Source: an uncultured Burkholderiales bacterium (lineage in GTDB: Bacteria; Pseudomonadota; Gammaproteobacteria; Burkholderiales; Burkholderiaceae_C). Taken from it: a DNA stretch of 57,054 nt. This document shows positions 42,407 to 48,782 of the stretch, in pieces. The stretch is from assembly GCA_903896615.1 (NCBI GenBank), contig CAITYM010000058.1, forward strand, positions 1-57,054, read 5' to 3'. The notes under the pieces are model-generated. The model saw only the letters and a program-made list of their open reading frames with translations, ran no database searches and was not told the origin of the DNA. The translations under genes and the position numbers were made by a program. The first letter of the stretch is position 1, and each line of letters begins with the position of its first letter.

Positions 42407-42426
42407 TATCCAAAACTAAAGAACGG

Positions 42427-42462
42427 CAGGACTGGTATTTCATGATGTGAAATTCAGTCCTG
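42427..42462 (+). terminator. Long hairpin after the DEAD-box gene
   Basis: CAGGACTG (42427-42434) pairs with CAGTCCTG (42455-42462), and ATTTCA/TGAAAT continue the stem inside a small internal loop. The hairpin is strong, but only a mixed T-rich stretch follows, so it is a probable rather than certain terminator. Confidence 0.55.
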
Positions 42463-42602
42463 TCTGGATTTATGTCTTTATTGGTTATTTTATTGACAGA
42501 TGTGTTGCAAAAATCTCAAAAGAATATTCAATAAAATCAACAAGTTCAGGTAAAAAGTTAATTTGTTACAATTATTTGATAAGATTATGTTAAGGAGACA
42601 AT

Positions 42603-43139
42603 ATGTCCAATCAATCTGATTCACTTGAAAGCGTAGTTATTGGCGACGGCGTCGTAGTTAAGGGTACCTTCACGGTTCCTTCTAAGGCTGTGGTCAATGG
42701 TGTCATTGAAGGCGACTTGACGGCAGAGGAGGTTCTTATCGGGCCTACTGGTCGTATAACTGGTCGTGTGTCTGCAAAAGTCATTGACGTTCGCGGTCAA
42801 TTACACAATACGATCATTAGTGAGAAGAGTTTGATTGTTCGCTCGACTGGCAAGATTGCAGGTAAAGTTCATTACTCTGAAATTGAAATTGAGAAGGGCG
42901 GAGAGATCGAGGGCTCCCTCAGTCAAGATTCCGATGATGTTCCCACCCAAGCTGCTCAAGCACCACAAGCTTCTGCAAAACCCGTTGCAGGTTCTGCCCA
43001 GCCTGCCCCTGCAGCTGCCCCCGCTCCGCAGCAACAGCCTGCTGGTACAAATTCCAACGCACAGGCAAATGCCCCTGCAGCCAACGCTGGAACAAACAAT
43101 CGGCAAGCAAACAACAATACCCCACCTCAAGCCAATTGA
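42603..43139 (+). CDS. Bactofilin (first copy)
   Basis: A 178-residue bactofilin, a polymer-forming cytoskeletal protein. The beta-helix core runs from about 10 to 112, with the typical repeats VVIGDGVVVKGTFTVPSKAV, EEVLIGPTGRITGRV and IVRSTGKIAGKVHY. A tail of Ala/Gln/Pro/Asn low complexity (about 113-178) follows. Bactofilins assemble without nucleotide on the inner membrane and recruit peptidoglycan enzymes. AAGGAG precedes the ATG. A membrane M23 peptidase gene starts 48 bases later and a second bactofilin follows that. Identification of the fold is secure. Confidence 0.92.
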   Translation: MSNQSDSLESVVIGDGVVVKGTFTVPSKAVVNGVIEGDLTAEEVLIGPTGRITGRVSAKVIDVRGQLHNTIISEKSLIVRSTGKIAGKVHYSEIEIEKGGEIEGSLSQDSDDVPTQAAQAPQASAKPVAGSAQPAPAAAPAPQQQPAGTNSNAQANAPAANAGTNNRQANNNTPPQAN

Positions 43140-43187
43140 GCTGAGCGAAGATAACTAAACCCAAAGTACCTCTGTCTGCTCTAGATC

Positions 43188-44231
43188 ATGAACATCTTAC
43201 GAGGCCTTCCAACTACCATGCGATCTTTCGCTCGCTTGGTTGTCCATTCATGGACTAGGGAGTATCAGGATGCACGGATCATTTTGGAGCAGAACGGGGA
43301 CCTTAAGTATTTAAATATTTCTGCAAAAATACAAAAAGTATTTATACGCAGCAGTATCGTTACCACAGGTGTATTGCTTTTAACCATCGTCTCCTTAGCG
43401 AGTACGAGCATTAATCTTTTTACCAGCCGTGCTAGGTTAGAGAGATCGCATGAGGAGGTCTACAGGGCTTTGCTCAGCAGTGCTTTAGATGGGAAAGATG
43501 CTCAAGACGTCCAGTTAAGTGAAGATCAAATGGTTGCATTGGCTCAAACCATTCGCGATCGCGACATGAGTATTCGCAGGTTTGTGGACACATCCATGGT
43601 GGCTGTTACTCAAGAAAATGACACCATGAAGTCACAACTTGACTCTTCAGGTTTGACCGAGAAAATCGTCAAAATCATTCAGCAAAATTCAGCAAACGGG
43701 GGCTTAACTCCTGAAAATACTTTGTTGGAAAACCCCTTGCTTAGGGGCAAAGTGGCTGACGAATTGTCTACCAACCGCGCTTTGCGGGAGGTTTTGTATG
43801 CACTCCCCACCAATATGCCTATTGCCAATTACAGCGTCTCCTCAGATTTTGGCATTCGCAAGCACCCTGTGACCGGGATACCACACTTTCACACTGGGGT
43901 AGATTTACTCACGGCCACAAACGACGACAACGTTCACCCAGTTAAGCCTGGCATAATTGTGATGGCTGAGTTTCACTCAACCTACGGAAATACGGTAGTC
44001 GTGCGCCACACAAACGGTGTCGAATCCCTTTATGCTCACCTTGCCGCCATATCCGTAAAAGTGGGGGACAAAGTCACCATGGATGATGTGATTGGACGCA
44101 TTGGTAATACAGGCGTTTCAACTGGCAAGCATCTGCATCTTGAAATCTTGGTTGGTGGATATCCAGTAAATCCGCAAAAAGTAATTCGGACAGCACAATA
44201 TGTTCAACAAATCCAGCAAAAATCTCAGTAA
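43188..44231 (+). CDS. Membrane-anchored M23 (LytM) peptidoglycan peptidase
   Basis: A 347-residue protein: a basic cytoplasmic N terminus (1-53), one membrane segment (about 54-77, SSIVTTGVLLLTIVSLASTS), a helical periplasmic linker (about 80-210) and the LytM domain. Zinc ligands are intact: H235 and D239 in HFHTGVD, H284 as the catalytic His in YAHL, and H317 in HLHLE, so it should be an active endopeptidase. Partner genes for bactofilins in Helicobacter, Hyphomonas and Caulobacter are of this type. It is encoded between two bactofilins, and the next gene overlaps its end by 32 bases. Confidence 0.9.
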   Translation: MNILRGLPTTMRSFARLVVHSWTREYQDARIILEQNGDLKYLNISAKIQKVFIRSSIVTTGVLLLTIVSLASTSINLFTSRARLERSHEEVYRALLSSALDGKDAQDVQLSEDQMVALAQTIRDRDMSIRRFVDTSMVAVTQENDTMKSQLDSSGLTEKIVKIIQQNSANGGLTPENTLLENPLLRGKVADELSTNRALREVLYALPTNMPIANYSVSSDFGIRKHPVTGIPHFHTGVDLLTATNDDNVHPVKPGIIVMAEFHSTYGNTVVVRHTNGVESLYAHLAAISVKVGDKVTMDDVIGRIGNTGVSTGKHLHLEILVGGYPVNPQKVIRTAQYVQQIQQKSQ

Positions 44232-44730
44232 TCAAAGTGCCTCACAAAACGAACCTCAAGGCGAACACTCTAGATTACTAAAAACTCAAACTGCTCACCA
44301 ATCTTTAGATAATTCCTCAACCCAAGTTAACCCAAACGAGCAATCTCAAATCGGGATTGCACCCTCTCAACATAATCAATCGCGTAATACTACTATGATG
44401 GACATCATCTCATCAAACTCAAACAAGCCCTCCATTCTGAGCGAGGGATTTTCTTTCCGTGGTGAAATTTCAGCCAAGGGTGCTATCCACGTTGAAGGTT
44501 CTTTAAACGGACAAGTACAAGTTGATGAATTGACTATCGGCTCAAGAGGGCAGGTAGAGGGCGTCGTAACTTGCTCAAGTTTGCATATCAAGGGTAAGTT
44601 CTCGGGCACTGCCACTTGCAGTGAACTCATCGTTACCTCCTCTGCTTCGGTTGATGGACATGTTGTTTATCAGACCCTTTCAGTTCAAAAGGGTGCCTCT
44701 ATCAAGGGCGAGCTTTTGTTGGTTAAATAA
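44200..44730 (+). CDS. Bactofilin (second copy)
   Basis: A 176-residue protein. The bactofilin core lies at about 82-176 (GFSFRGEISAKGAIHVEGSL, LTIGSRGQVEGVV, SASVDGHVVYQTL and QKGASIKGELL). The first about 65 residues are Ser/Gln/Asn-rich and probably disordered; alternatively translation starts at the ATGATG near 44395, which would give a core-only protein. Overlap of 32 bases with the M23 gene suggests coupling if the long form is real. Compared with copy 1, the disordered part is at the N terminus rather than the C terminus, so the two could co-assemble differently. Confidence 0.88.
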   Translation: MFNKSSKNLSNQSASQNEPQGEHSRLLKTQTAHQSLDNSSTQVNPNEQSQIGIAPSQHNQSRNTTMMDIISSNSNKPSILSEGFSFRGEISAKGAIHVEGSLNGQVQVDELTIGSRGQVEGVVTCSSLHIKGKFSGTATCSELIVTSSASVDGHVVYQTLSVQKGASIKGELLLVK

Positions 44731-44760
44731 TTTAAACTGCTTTTAAGGAATCTCACCTCC

Positions 44761-45981
44761 ATGTCTGATCCGCTCACAATCAACGGATCCTTCCTCAGGG
44801 AAGTTCGTGAATCCTTAGGATGGTCACACGGGGAGGTCGCCTCCAGAGCTTGTTTATCCGTTAAACAAGTCAAGCAACTTGAGGAAGGTGGAGCAAGTTC
44901 CTTTTACAGTGATAACGTTAAACTCACTGCAGCCCGAAAGGTGGCTGGGATACTAGGCGTTAGCGAAAATGATTTGCTTGGTAAGGCTGAGCCTGAAGTG
45001 GCTCAACTAGCTGAGGATATTACCCAAGCTCTTGATTCTTCTCCTGCCTCTTTGTCTGCATCTGCAACTGCAGATGCTGCTCATTACGACAAGTTAAGCC
45101 CCCATAGTGACAACACAGAATCTGAGGAGACTGAGTCCATAGCGCACCCAGATTTCGCAGAAAATGCCAAAAGCACATCAACTCAAATTCATCAACCTAT
45201 CCTTACACCAGGAGTGCAGGCTCTAACTATTAGAAGTGAAGTACTTCATTTTTTGGCACAACCCCCTGAGGAAGGTCACGATGAACATCACCTAGGTGAA
45301 GAAACAGGTGAAGCTCATCGCTTGGAAAAAAGCAGTGATCAGACAGATTCTGAACATCAATTGACTTCAGAGTCATCACTAGCGCATCCATCATTTGAGC
45401 ATAGCGATGCGTCTAGCGAAAACGGTGAGTTATCCGCACAGTCCCTAGATCACGAAATAACAAAAACTGATTCGGCTCAAGTCTCAGAAACTGACAAAGA
45501 CCAAGCTAGTTCAAATTCAGCTTCGAATCTGCTTAAAATTATTGTTCTTTTCTTGCTTGCCTTGGGAATTGCAGCATTCTTTGCTCAAAAGACCAATGAA
45601 GAGCACTCAGAGCCGCCACCGCCACTTCAAGCGGTTCCTGACGCAACTACACAGGGTGGCTCTGATCCAAGTGTTAAACAAGATGATCAGCCAAGCTCTG
45701 CTAAGTCGGGCACACCAGCTGTTCCATCAACTACGGTAACGCCCACTCCCACTCCCACTCCCACTCCAGCCAACGGCGCTACCTTTGCGCCGGGTTCATC
45801 CAGTGTAAGTGCAGGCAATTCTGCTGCGGCCAGCAAATCCAGCAACATTAATTCATCAAATACCACAAACCCTATTAACGCTACGGCTCCTTTAAAGTCG
45901 CCTAACGCTGATCAGAGGTCATCGACTCCGCCCTCATCTCTTACAACCAGCACGCCAAGTAATTCTAGTCCTGGCAACTGA
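44761..45981 (+). CDS. RodZ-like HTH/transmembrane protein
   Basis: A 406-residue single-pass membrane protein. The N-terminal XRE helix-turn-helix (about 8-72, FLREVRESLGWSHGEVASRA then LSVKQVKQLEEG) is the RodZ/Cro type; an acidic, Ser/His/Glu-rich cytoplasmic linker (about 75-250) follows, then a membrane helix (about 255-277, LLKIIVLFLLALGIAAFFA) and a periplasmic Pro/Ser/Thr tail with four TP repeats, lacking the globular RodZ domain. RodZ couples cytoskeleton (MreB) to wall synthesis; here it sits in a bactofilin operon, suggesting a similar anchoring role. This is inference. It begins 30 bases after the second bactofilin. Confidence 0.8.
   Translation: MSDPLTINGSFLREVRESLGWSHGEVASRACLSVKQVKQLEEGGASSFYSDNVKLTAARKVAGILGVSENDLLGKAEPEVAQLAEDITQALDSSPASLSASATADAAHYDKLSPHSDNTESEETESIAHPDFAENAKSTSTQIHQPILTPGVQALTIRSEVLHFLAQPPEEGHDEHHLGEETGEAHRLEKSSDQTDSEHQLTSESSLAHPSFEHSDASSENGELSAQSLDHEITKTDSAQVSETDKDQASSNSASNLLKIIVLFLLALGIAAFFAQKTNEEHSEPPPPLQAVPDATTQGGSDPSVKQDDQPSSAKSGTPAVPSTTVTPTPTPTPTPANGATFAPGSSSVSAGNSAAASKSSNINSSNTTNPINATAPLKSPNADQRSSTPPSSLTTSTPSNSSPGN
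45742..45765 (+). repeat. (CCCACT)4 tandem repeat in the RodZ-like gene
   Basis: Four perfect hexamers encode Pro-Thr pairs in the periplasmic tail. Slippage would change tail length by whole residues. Confidence 0.9.
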
Positions 45982-46096: not shown

Positions 46097-46219
46097 TCAA
46101 AGGTATTGGTCAAACATCCACTGGATGAGCTCTAGATGAGTTATATGACCCGGTTGAAGGTTACCTTTATTACCATTACCTTTGTTACCTTTGTTACCTT
46201 TGTTACCTTTGGGTCCCAT
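46097..46219 (-). CDS. Candidate 40-residue KGN-repeat micro-protein
   Basis: On the minus strand, 11 bases after the hemH stop, an ATG opens a 40-codon frame: MGP followed by four KGN triplets, GN, another KGN, and a non-repetitive C terminus that ends in a hydrophobic helix-like stretch (HLELIQWMFDQYL). The repeats are basic and Gly-rich. AAAGGAG is present but 14 bases upstream, longer than ideal. Short KGN-containing basic proteins occur in Burkholderiales, which weakly supports it. If real, it is cotranscribed with hemH. No function is claimed. Confidence 0.3.
   Translation of the reverse strand: MGPKGNKGNKGNKGNGNKGNLQPGHITHLELIQWMFDQYL
46161..46211. repeat. 9-bp tandem repeats TTACCTTTG downstream of hemH
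   Basis: Four perfect copies of TTACCTTTG (46176-46211) are preceded by TTACCTTTA and a 6-base partial copy (46161-46175). The period of 9 keeps the frame of the KGN micro-ORF on the minus strand (AAAGGTAAC units). Confidence 0.9.
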
Positions 46220-47420: not shown

Positions 47421-48782
47421 CTAACAGGATCCCATGACTTTTTGTATAACGGCTACGCCCGATAGCACCGCCCCTTCAAGTGTGGAGGGGTAGGGGCCAG
47501 CCACGTAGTCCCCGCAAGCCCAAAGTTGATCCGATATTTGAGGCCCTGGCCTAACAAGTCCTGGTTTGCAACAAAAGGTAGCGCGTCGCTCGTTAATGGT
47601 GCCTAAGTGTTCTAATTTCGTGAGCCCCAACTCCTGACGAGCCTGCTCCATCACGAGGCTACTAATTTGCTCGTTGGTGAGTGTTGCGTAGCTACTCACA
47701 AAACTGAGTATGCCGCTGTTAGAGTCTGCACTCCCTGGACTTAAGTTGCCTTTAAATAGATATCCACGATCAAATACAAACTGTGCAGGCGCCTTTATAC
47801 CCACACCTTTGTCTGCCTCACCAGCATTACTCGCATTACTAGCATTACTAGCATTACTCGCATCACTCCTTAGCATTATCAGTGGCTGAGGTAGCCCTTT
47901 AAAGTTTGCATCCGTGCAGCGTATATAGGTGCTTGCAATTTGGGTGTATTCGATGCCTTCAACAACACCAGCCCATTGAGGATTTATTGATTTAATAAGT
48001 CTGGCTGCATTTGATGGGTCGCACGCAATAATGATCGCATCAGGTTTTTGTGCATCTTTTAATGTGTCGAGTTGGTCAATGAGAGACTCAATTCGTCTAC
48101 CCTTTTGTATAGTGCAGCCTTTGTGCAATAACCATTTTTCGCACGCCTTAGGTAATAACTCACTTAGATCACAACGCGGTATCAAAAAGTCTGAACTACC
48201 CGGTCCTGAGAACATAGCATCCCTGAGAACCCGTAAAAAAATTTGTCCACTAGAGATCTCTATTGGCGAGTTCAGGGCAGAAAGACACAAGGGTGTGATT
48301 AATGTTTCGATCACGCGGTTGCTCACACCGGAGCAAATATCTTTTACAGAATTTTCCTGCCCACATTTGAATCCTCTGATTACCCACTTTACAGCAAAGC
48401 GAAGGAGTGAATATTTATCCTTTAGTGACCACTGCGAGCACCTGAGTGTGGCTAGTAAAAATTGCAAAGCAGGCGCAAATGAATCGGGACCCGAGAGTTC
48501 AAATCCTTGATCATTGAAGTCTTTTAAGCTCATGCGCTTTCGAATCAATAATTCTTTGGGATTAAGGCCAATGCTGGACATCAAATCAAGCGTTGCCTTG
48601 TAAGCGCCAATCAAAATATGTTGACCGTTATCCAAAATATGATTATTCAGGAGAACAGATCTTGCGCGTCCACCCAATTCATTTCTTGCTTCTATGAGAG
48701 TGACATTTGCTCCCCTTTGTGTGGCTTGTACTGCAGCACTTAGCCCGGCCCAGCCTGCTCCAATAATTAGGATTTTTTTCAA
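47421..48782 (-). CDS. hpnE: Hydroxysqualene dehydroxylase HpnE
   Basis: A FAD-dependent enzyme of about 453 residues that converts hydroxysqualene to squalene for hopanoids. N-terminal KKILIIGAGWAGLSAAVQA binds FAD; LIEARNELGGRA and the C-terminal LWACGDYVAGPYPSTLEGAV are family motifs. The TTG at 48782 overlaps the hpnD stop (TTGA) and gives the usual HpnE N terminus; an ATG at 48818 would add 12 residues and overlap hpnD by 40 bases. A tandem ASN repeat near residue 320 is an insertion relative to homologues. Last gene of hpnCDE. Confidence 0.9.
   Translation of the reverse strand: MKKILIIGAGWAGLSAAVQATQRGANVTLIEARNELGGRARSVLLNNHILDNGQHILIGAYKATLDLMSSIGLNPKELLIRKRMSLKDFNDQGFELSGPDSFAPALQFLLATLRCSQWSLKDKYSLLRFAVKWVIRGFKCGQENSVKDICSGVSNRVIETLITPLCLSALNSPIEISSGQIFLRVLRDAMFSGPGSSDFLIPRCDLSELLPKACEKWLLHKGCTIQKGRRIESLIDQLDTLKDAQKPDAIIIACDPSNAARLIKSINPQWAGVVEGIEYTQIASTYIRCTDANFKGLPQPLIMLRSDASNASNASNASNAGEADKGVGIKAPAQFVFDRGYLFKGNLSPGSADSNSGILSFVSSYATLTNEQISSLVMEQARQELGLTKLEHLGTINERRATFCCKPGLVRPGPQISDQLWACGDYVAGPYPSTLEGAVLSGVAVIQKVMGSC
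47824..47868 (-). repeat. 9-bp tandem repeat encoding ASN units in hpnE
   Basis: Five 9-base units (GCATTACTC/GCATTACTA variants, the last with one change) encode repeated Ser-Asn-Ala in a loop of HpnE. The in-frame period allows length change without loss of the gene. Confidence 0.9.

Follow-up and report, generated by a model that had tools for sequence, protein, structure and literature searches.

A conserved cluster of two bactofilins, an M23 endopeptidase and a RodZ-like protein: a putative wall-morphogenesis module of Limnohabitans-type bacteria

Bactofilin genes beside M23 peptidase genes are known from 226 species, according to the accessible part of a source whose table may include the lineage treated here. 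In Rhodospirillum, the peptidase LmdC docks on the bactofilin BacA via a cytoplasmic β-hairpin, as stated in the available excerpt of PMC10945521, and the same excerpt reports that the Hyphomonas bactofilin BacD condensed into foci in E. coli without BacA. In Rhodomicrobium vannielii, BacC needs BacA to localise (PMC10259793); E. coli itself lacks bactofilins, according to the same source. How bactofilin scaffolds are coordinated with the MreB elongasome, and why a genome carries several bactofilins, are poorly understood questions. Here, we analyze a cluster of four genes (bactofilin, M23 peptidase, bactofilin and a RodZ-like protein) in a stretch of 57,054 nucleotides from an uncultured Burkholderiales bacterium (GCA_903896615.1, contig CAITYM010000058.1). 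This stretch, the window, corresponds to one complete contig out of 173 in a 3.18 Mb genome, whose host is a Limnohabitans-type member of the Comamonadaceae, and the layout found in it looks like a richer version of the known bactofilin-M23 cell-shape module.

All four genes lie on the plus strand. The first (42603..43139; 178 aa) encodes Bac1, a bactofilin (PF04519, 7.1e-20) without an N-terminal membrane-targeting sequence. It is followed after 48 bases by the gene of a predicted bitopic, LmdC-like M23 endopeptidase (43188..44231; 347 aa; PF01551, 2.1e-26), hereafter M23, which belongs to a conserved family and was modelled with AlphaFold2. The gene of Bac2, a bactofilin that does carry a targeting sequence (44200..44730; 176 aa; PF04519, 2e-22 at residues 78-172), overlaps the M23 gene by 32 bases. 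After a further 30 bases begins the gene of Z (44761..45981; 406 aa), a RodZ-like protein with a helix-turn-helix (HTH) domain and a transmembrane segment, a designation based on its HTH matches, its model and a genome without a RodZ_C match. A preliminary description, made from the letters of this DNA alone, had noted the tight packing and the overlap, and the open reading frames (ORFs) and Pfam matches bear both out.

Conservation and distribution of the gene order

The four-gene layout is conserved and, by the samples used here, lineage-restricted, as follows from the order counts and from the distribution over genus, family, order and phylum. Loci were taken from 40 regions (39 of the genus, one of another genus) and from a scan of named genomes (69 loci), and ORFs were labelled by home-made profiles as bactofilin (B), M23 (M) or RodZ-like (Z). 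Over 108 of the 109 loci, leaving out L115, which has no M23, the patterns were BMBZ (84), ZMBBMBZ (11), BMB (5), MBZ (2), MBBMBZ (2), BM (2), BMBBZ (1) and BBMB (1). The two sets overlap; 107 loci, with L115 and L200 (M23 off the contig end) excluded, gave 72 distinct M23 proteins, from which four outsider loci were separated by divergence and not by the genus of each record. All four genes stand in order on one strand in 64 of the 68 distinct Limnohabitans-type loci, and the remaining four reach contig ends. The order thus held in relatives, which the preliminary description had set as a test. As the ratio of nonsynonymous to synonymous substitution rates (dN/dS) of M23 is moreover 0.02-0.03 (5 of 7 pairs with a value), the layout is not a product of chance.

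Outside these loci, the triad Bac1-M23-Bac2 was found without Z in other genera (L116, L198, L199, L201, L229, L230, L231). The record of L199 is titled as an alphaproteobacterial metagenome-assembled genome, which may point to a wrong label, to contamination of the bin or to a transfer. In another genus of the family, genes resembling response regulators by eye lie directly upstream of Bac1 (L229:43-963 and L230:6306-7370). The longer pattern Z-M-B-B-M-B-Z, in which the module stands directly behind a second RodZ-type/M23/bactofilin cluster, accounts for 11 loci on 7 distinct contigs (L104, L108, L111, L113, L173, L177-L179, L185, L187, L195).

To follow the distribution, we used a profile that covers the N-terminal half of M23, the part specific to this family. 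Within the genus it matched 70 of 84 genomes (36 of the 40 of high quality), in the family 9 of 399 (3 of 141 genera) and in the order one of 399, namely the window's own. Of the 14 genus genomes without a match, seven have other genes on the side of hemH where the module would lie, and in five no hemH was found; one has Z and Bac2 before its contig breaks off, and hence the module, and in the last the contig stops just behind hemH. At the level of the phylum, bactofilins matched in 74 of 150 Pseudomonadota genomes, and, with coordinates read by eye, two same-strand bactofilins spaced to flank an M23 gene were seen in the window's genome alone. The sole other close same-strand pair outside a single ORF lies in G173, 155 bases apart. 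The window's genome also holds ten bactofilin genes in 3.2 Mb, the most among these 150 genomes, followed by one with six. Among the papers listed on bactofilins together with M23, RodZ, betaproteobacteria, Comamonadaceae, Limnohabitans or heteropolymers (for the last topic 10 of 59), in a collection with few subscription journals, none describes this layout.

Two bactofilins and a coding overlap

Both proteins are clear bactofilins, with Bac1 and Bac2 reaching 71.5 and 79.7 bits against PF04519 (cut-off 27.9) over model positions 2-97 and 1-97 of 98. They differ in their ends. Bac2 starts with MFNKSSKNL, with F2, K4 and K7, and thereby carries a canonical membrane-targeting sequence; for comparison, the accessible part of PMC12448750 gives MFSKQAKS as the membrane-targeting peptide of Caulobacter BacA and MFSKKKK as the global bactofilin consensus. 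Bac1 has no such start. Among relatives, an MF start near the M23 stop, followed by basic residues, was found at 67 of 71 distinct loci, in 42 of them as MFNKSK. None of the Bac1 proteins of relatives has an MF start, the one of 71 that was flagged being an upstream start codon in L170. By eye, the M23-linked C14 bactofilin of the window's genome shows an MF-E-K start preceded by another in-frame Met, and its seven remaining bactofilin paralogues have no such MF start.

The overlap (44200..44231) encodes the M23 C-terminus together with the targeting N-terminus of Bac2, and its codons are constrained. One Val codon of M23 contributes the G of the Bac2 start codon ATG as well as the first two bases of Phe2, and it reads GTT in all 71 M23 genes in which the site is readable; L116, one of the 72 loci, departs from the pattern. 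Elsewhere in M23, three conserved Val positions have GTT in 7 of 71, 22 of 71 and 17 of 54 genes (8 more loci have Met at the last), and GTT makes up 25% of the Val codons in these genes overall. Likewise, the Tyr or His codon preceding this Val ends in T in 70 of 71 genes, compared with 370 of 703 Tyr codons overall; at two further Tyr positions the counts are 59 of 71 and 44 of 71. Elsewhere, synonymous change is close to saturated, with dS in the compared pairs either at least 0.75 or too large to estimate. The loci are related and these counts hence not independent, but the contrast is drawn within the same genes. The codon test, made without preselection, leads us to reject the MFNK of Bac2 as a by-product of the M23 C-terminus. 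As the end of the peptidase gene also encodes the targeting peptide of the peptidase's own scaffold, production of client and membrane anchor could be coupled.

The preliminary description had also placed the disordered parts at opposite ends of the two bactofilins. For Bac2 this stood up, as its N-terminal extension is nearly always kept (the same 67 of 71 loci). The long C-tail of Bac1, which is rich in A, Q and N, is confined to the window's close kin: in relatives, Bac1 exceeds 165 aa in 6 of 71 and has a median of 130 aa, the window's own protein of 178 aa being outside the 71. Both proteins are under purifying selection, with dN/dS values of 0.00-0.11 for Bac2 (6 of 7 pairs with a value; in L080, L137 and L138 for the core only) and 0.05-0.13 for Bac1 (5 of 7 pairs with a value). 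A tree of 36 bactofilins places Bac2 of every sampled genus in one group (93/95; single origin in 90% of 200 bootstrap trees). Bac1 lies across a weak split (79/82), and its group takes in five other bactofilins of the window's genome, so that Bac1 does not form one clade. A recent tandem duplication as the source of Bac1 and Bac2 was rejected on the basis of this tree, in which long branches call for caution.

Anatomy of M23 and of the RodZ-like protein

The AlphaFold2 model of M23, built on 31 alignment rows, has a mean predicted local distance difference test (pLDDT) score of 80.9 and a predicted template modelling (pTM) score of 0.55. A helix at residues 2-23 precedes two strands (29-35 and 38-44), a long helix (46-99), more helices and the C-terminal M23 domain (234-329). 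The strands form a predicted cytoplasmic β-hairpin (43272..43319), the proposed docking site for bactofilin, in ten-residue blocks with mean pLDDT values of 80-89. The long helix (43323..43484) includes the transmembrane segment and continues into a periplasmic, coiled-coil-like stretch. In the hairpin region, W22, D28, I32, E34 and Q35 are nearly invariant and L39 is invariant. The mean share of the top residue, calculated from 28 of the 31 rows with three rows of a second M23 type left out, is 0.68 for residues 21-50, compared with 0.40 for the first 20 residues and 0.47 for the transmembrane stretch 51-75. With 0.75 for the catalytic domain and still 0.71 for the periplasmic stretch 121-205, the hairpin does not stand out by conservation alone.

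The catalytic domain (43887..44174), supported by Pfam, alignment and Foldseek, has intact active-site residues. H235, D239, H284, H315 and H317, comprising zinc ligands and catalytic residues, are invariant in all 31 aligned proteins, in agreement with the zinc ligands recognized at the outset. ShyA and NMB0315 are among the first Foldseek and phmmer matches, and Csd1-Csd2 are also listed. The gene adjoins a bactofilin gene and its product is predicted to have the hairpin, transmembrane segment, coiled coil and M23 domain of a bitopic LmdC-type protein. On these grounds we propose that M23 is an LmdC-like endopeptidase that would dock on bactofilin by its cytoplasmic hairpin. The closer counterpart of LmdC may be C14, the other M23-bactofilin pair in this genome.

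The Pfam matches of Z in the protein scan were HTH_31, HTH_25, HTH_19 and HTH_3 (1.2e-5 to 1.7e-4, all below cut-offs), plus two weak matches at chance level; HTH_25 scored 24.0 bits in that scan and 27.9 bits, over its cut-off of 24.6, in the genome search. The protein combines an N-terminal HTH with a single predicted transmembrane helix, as RodZ does. The model places the HTH at residues 7-72 (44779..44976), one transmembrane helix at residues 253-277 (45517..45591) and behind it a disordered periplasmic tail rich in P, T, S and A, in line with the initial impression of a RodZ-style protein without a globular periplasmic domain. The HTH is strongly conserved: dN is 0.04-0.15 over the first 75 residues versus 0.52-0.74 over the rest in six pairs, and 0.40 versus 0.85 with L105. 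The tail is 3-156 residues long in 63 relatives. In the window's protein, a hexamer repeat (CCCACT x4.3 at 45742-45767) encodes a TP run of this tail, where in-frame slippage could alter the length. The motif RSEVLHFLAQPPE in the disordered cytoplasmic linker (45232..45270) was considered as a universal docking site and rejected, as no more than 20 of the 63 complete Z sequences from relatives contain LH.LA.PP.

With regard to its relation to RodZ, the best NCBIfam match of Z is RodZ, at 3.4e-5 and 23.7 bits far below the equivalog cut-off of 208. RodZ_C (PF13464) matched neither Z nor anything else in the genome at E <= 0.001, and the two other RodZ-type genes of the genome do not pass the RodZ_C model in the genome search either. 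Of the C14-type genes, the one in L104 shows a weak RodZ_C match (6.9e-4, 20.0 bits versus 23.9), and the genome's own C14 copy shows none. Lacking RodZ_C and mreB-type neighbours, and with two further RodZ-type genes elsewhere, Z was rejected as the normal chromosomal rodZ; that identity, beside mreB, had been named beforehand as an outcome that would defeat the module idea. Of 61 genomes, 52 have Z together with M23, 9 have neither and none has only one, with presence of Z taken as E below 1e-10, a cut set after the table was seen. Three full-length MreB genes occur in the genome (L011-L013; L120:6509-8051), and the C51 copy has a convergent bactofilin gene about 110 bases away.

The cluster is flanked by genes named by eye, a DEAD-box helicase on one side and hemH-hpnE-hpnD-hpnC on the other. 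The gap of 196 bases behind the helicase gene (42407..42602) is the presumed site of an operon promoter; a sigma-70 scan gave no promoter site in it, and the counts of promoter-like sites (3 versus 5.4 in shuffles) and terminator-like sites (2 versus 4.1) carry no signal. A TTACCTTTG x4 array lies between Z and hemH (46176-46211), and a nine-base repeat (x5; 47824-47868) encodes a low-complexity NAS run in the hpnE-like gene.

Proposed mechanism and comparison with known systems

Taken together, the four genes are probably an operon for a BacA-LmdC-type wall-morphogenesis module that has become specialised through its two bactofilins and its RodZ-derived membrane protein. Bac2 would polymerise and attach to the inner membrane via its N-terminal MF-plus-lysine peptide, and Bac1, without such a peptide, would join the scaffold by binding Bac2, the M23 tail, or both. 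Docked on this scaffold by its hairpin, M23 would be confined to one zone of the envelope, where its periplasmic domain may cut peptide cross-links, so that local wall growth, and hence curvature or width, would change. Z could sit in the same membrane patch by its single transmembrane helix, and its HTH, binding protein as in RodZ, might link the patch to MreB and the elongasome or to the bactofilins. The preliminary description had read the genes as a possible cell-shape module, of which the anatomy, the order, the purifying selection, the constrained targeting motif and the co-occurrence with Z stand on observation; the physical interactions, co-transcription, enzyme activity and effect on shape are what we infer. 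Some loci weigh against the reading: the Bac2 extension is interrupted in the close kin L080, L137 and L138, which would start at MMDII with the core still conserved, and Bac2 of L155 fails the MF test.

An ordinary BacA-LmdC pair is an unlikely alternative to this module: Bac2 and M23 would then do the work, and Bac1 and Z would be neighbours with separate jobs or redundant copies. However, Bac1 precedes M23 in 71 of 72 distinct loci, with a contig end in the remaining one, and also does so in the other triad genera. Bac1 and Bac2 are no recent duplicate and both are under purifying selection, and Z goes with the module within the searched genomes. That Z acts as a regulator seems rather improbable to us, although its only strongly conserved part is the HTH and the six Foldseek matches of its model with E <= 0.001 are all HTH regulators (SinR, CapH, DdrO, ClgR). 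YmfM (3fym, titled a putative DNA-binding membrane protein), which we take to be a RodZ-type protein, follows at rank 11 with a TMt of 0.75, so the fold does not separate a RodZ HTH from a DNA-binding one. RodZ HTH domains share that fold and bind MreB, and RodZ is the best, if sub-threshold, NCBIfam match. We give little credence to bactofilins that organise the pole, chromosome segregation or adhesion, with M23 opening the wall locally for that purpose. Such a role has a precedent in Myxococcus xanthus, where ParABS is organised by the bactofilins BacNOP according to the accessible part of PMC5703909, but here an M23 with intact active-site residues and LmdC-like predicted anatomy stands mid-operon, and the immediate neighbours are not par or adhesion genes.

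A further step from the proposed wall-morphogenesis module is possible but tentative: a scaffold of one targeted and one untargeted bactofilin would capture the endopeptidase by its hairpin, and a RodZ derivative without a periplasmic domain would couple it to MreB, so that one operon joins both cytoskeletons and sets curvature in freshwater Limnohabitans. Cell shape in this genus spans cocci to solenoids, and the accessible part of PMC3591437 calls every one of the 7 LimA strains (L. curvus, L. australis and 5 isolates) solenoid; the excerpt of PMC3031073 describes L. australis as curved rods. Three named isolates with the module, B9-3, Jir61 and JirII-31 (L145, L159, L161), carry 'LimA' in their contig names. 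Against a link to curved shape, the same part of PMC3591437 lists B9-3 as LimE and ovoid, and JirII-31 and Jir61 do not appear in it. The link via strain names is suggestive only. Still, two bactofilins, a likely client enzyme and a RodZ derivative share one conserved cluster in a genus with cultured strains of differing shapes, so that the division of labour between bactofilins, client docking by a hairpin and a bactofilin-elongasome link become testable in one genetic unit.

Among known systems, RodZ shares with Z the N-terminal HTH and the single transmembrane helix, and a cytoplasmic HTH with a periplasmic C-terminus is assumed by this analogy. Z differs in its lack of RodZ_C, its weak similarity, the absence of an adjoining mreB and its position behind a bactofilin triad. 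CcmA with Csd1/Csd2 of Helicobacter pylori likewise combines a bactofilin and M23 proteins in a membrane-spanning shape complex, and Csd1-Csd2 recur among the M23 matches. The Helicobacter layout reportedly comprises one bactofilin, two M23 proteins and no RodZ-type gene, whereas here two bactofilins accompany one M23. In BacA/BacD of Hyphomonas and BacA/BacC of Rhodomicrobium, one bactofilin depends on another for filaments or localisation; unlike these co-polymerising bactofilins, Bac1 and Bac2 are encoded on either side of a peptidase, and only one has a targeting peptide. The BacA-LmdC system of Hyphomonas neptunium and Rhodospirillum rubrum, as far as the available excerpt of PMC10945521 describes it, shares with the window a bactofilin beside a bitopic M23 protein with hairpin, transmembrane segment, coiled coil and C-terminal M23 domain. 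H. neptunium too has an overlap between the two genes, of 17 bp compared with 32 bases here, and its second bactofilin gene, bacD, is not part of an operon. In the window, by comparison, the peptidase is flanked by two different bactofilins and joined by a RodZ-type protein.

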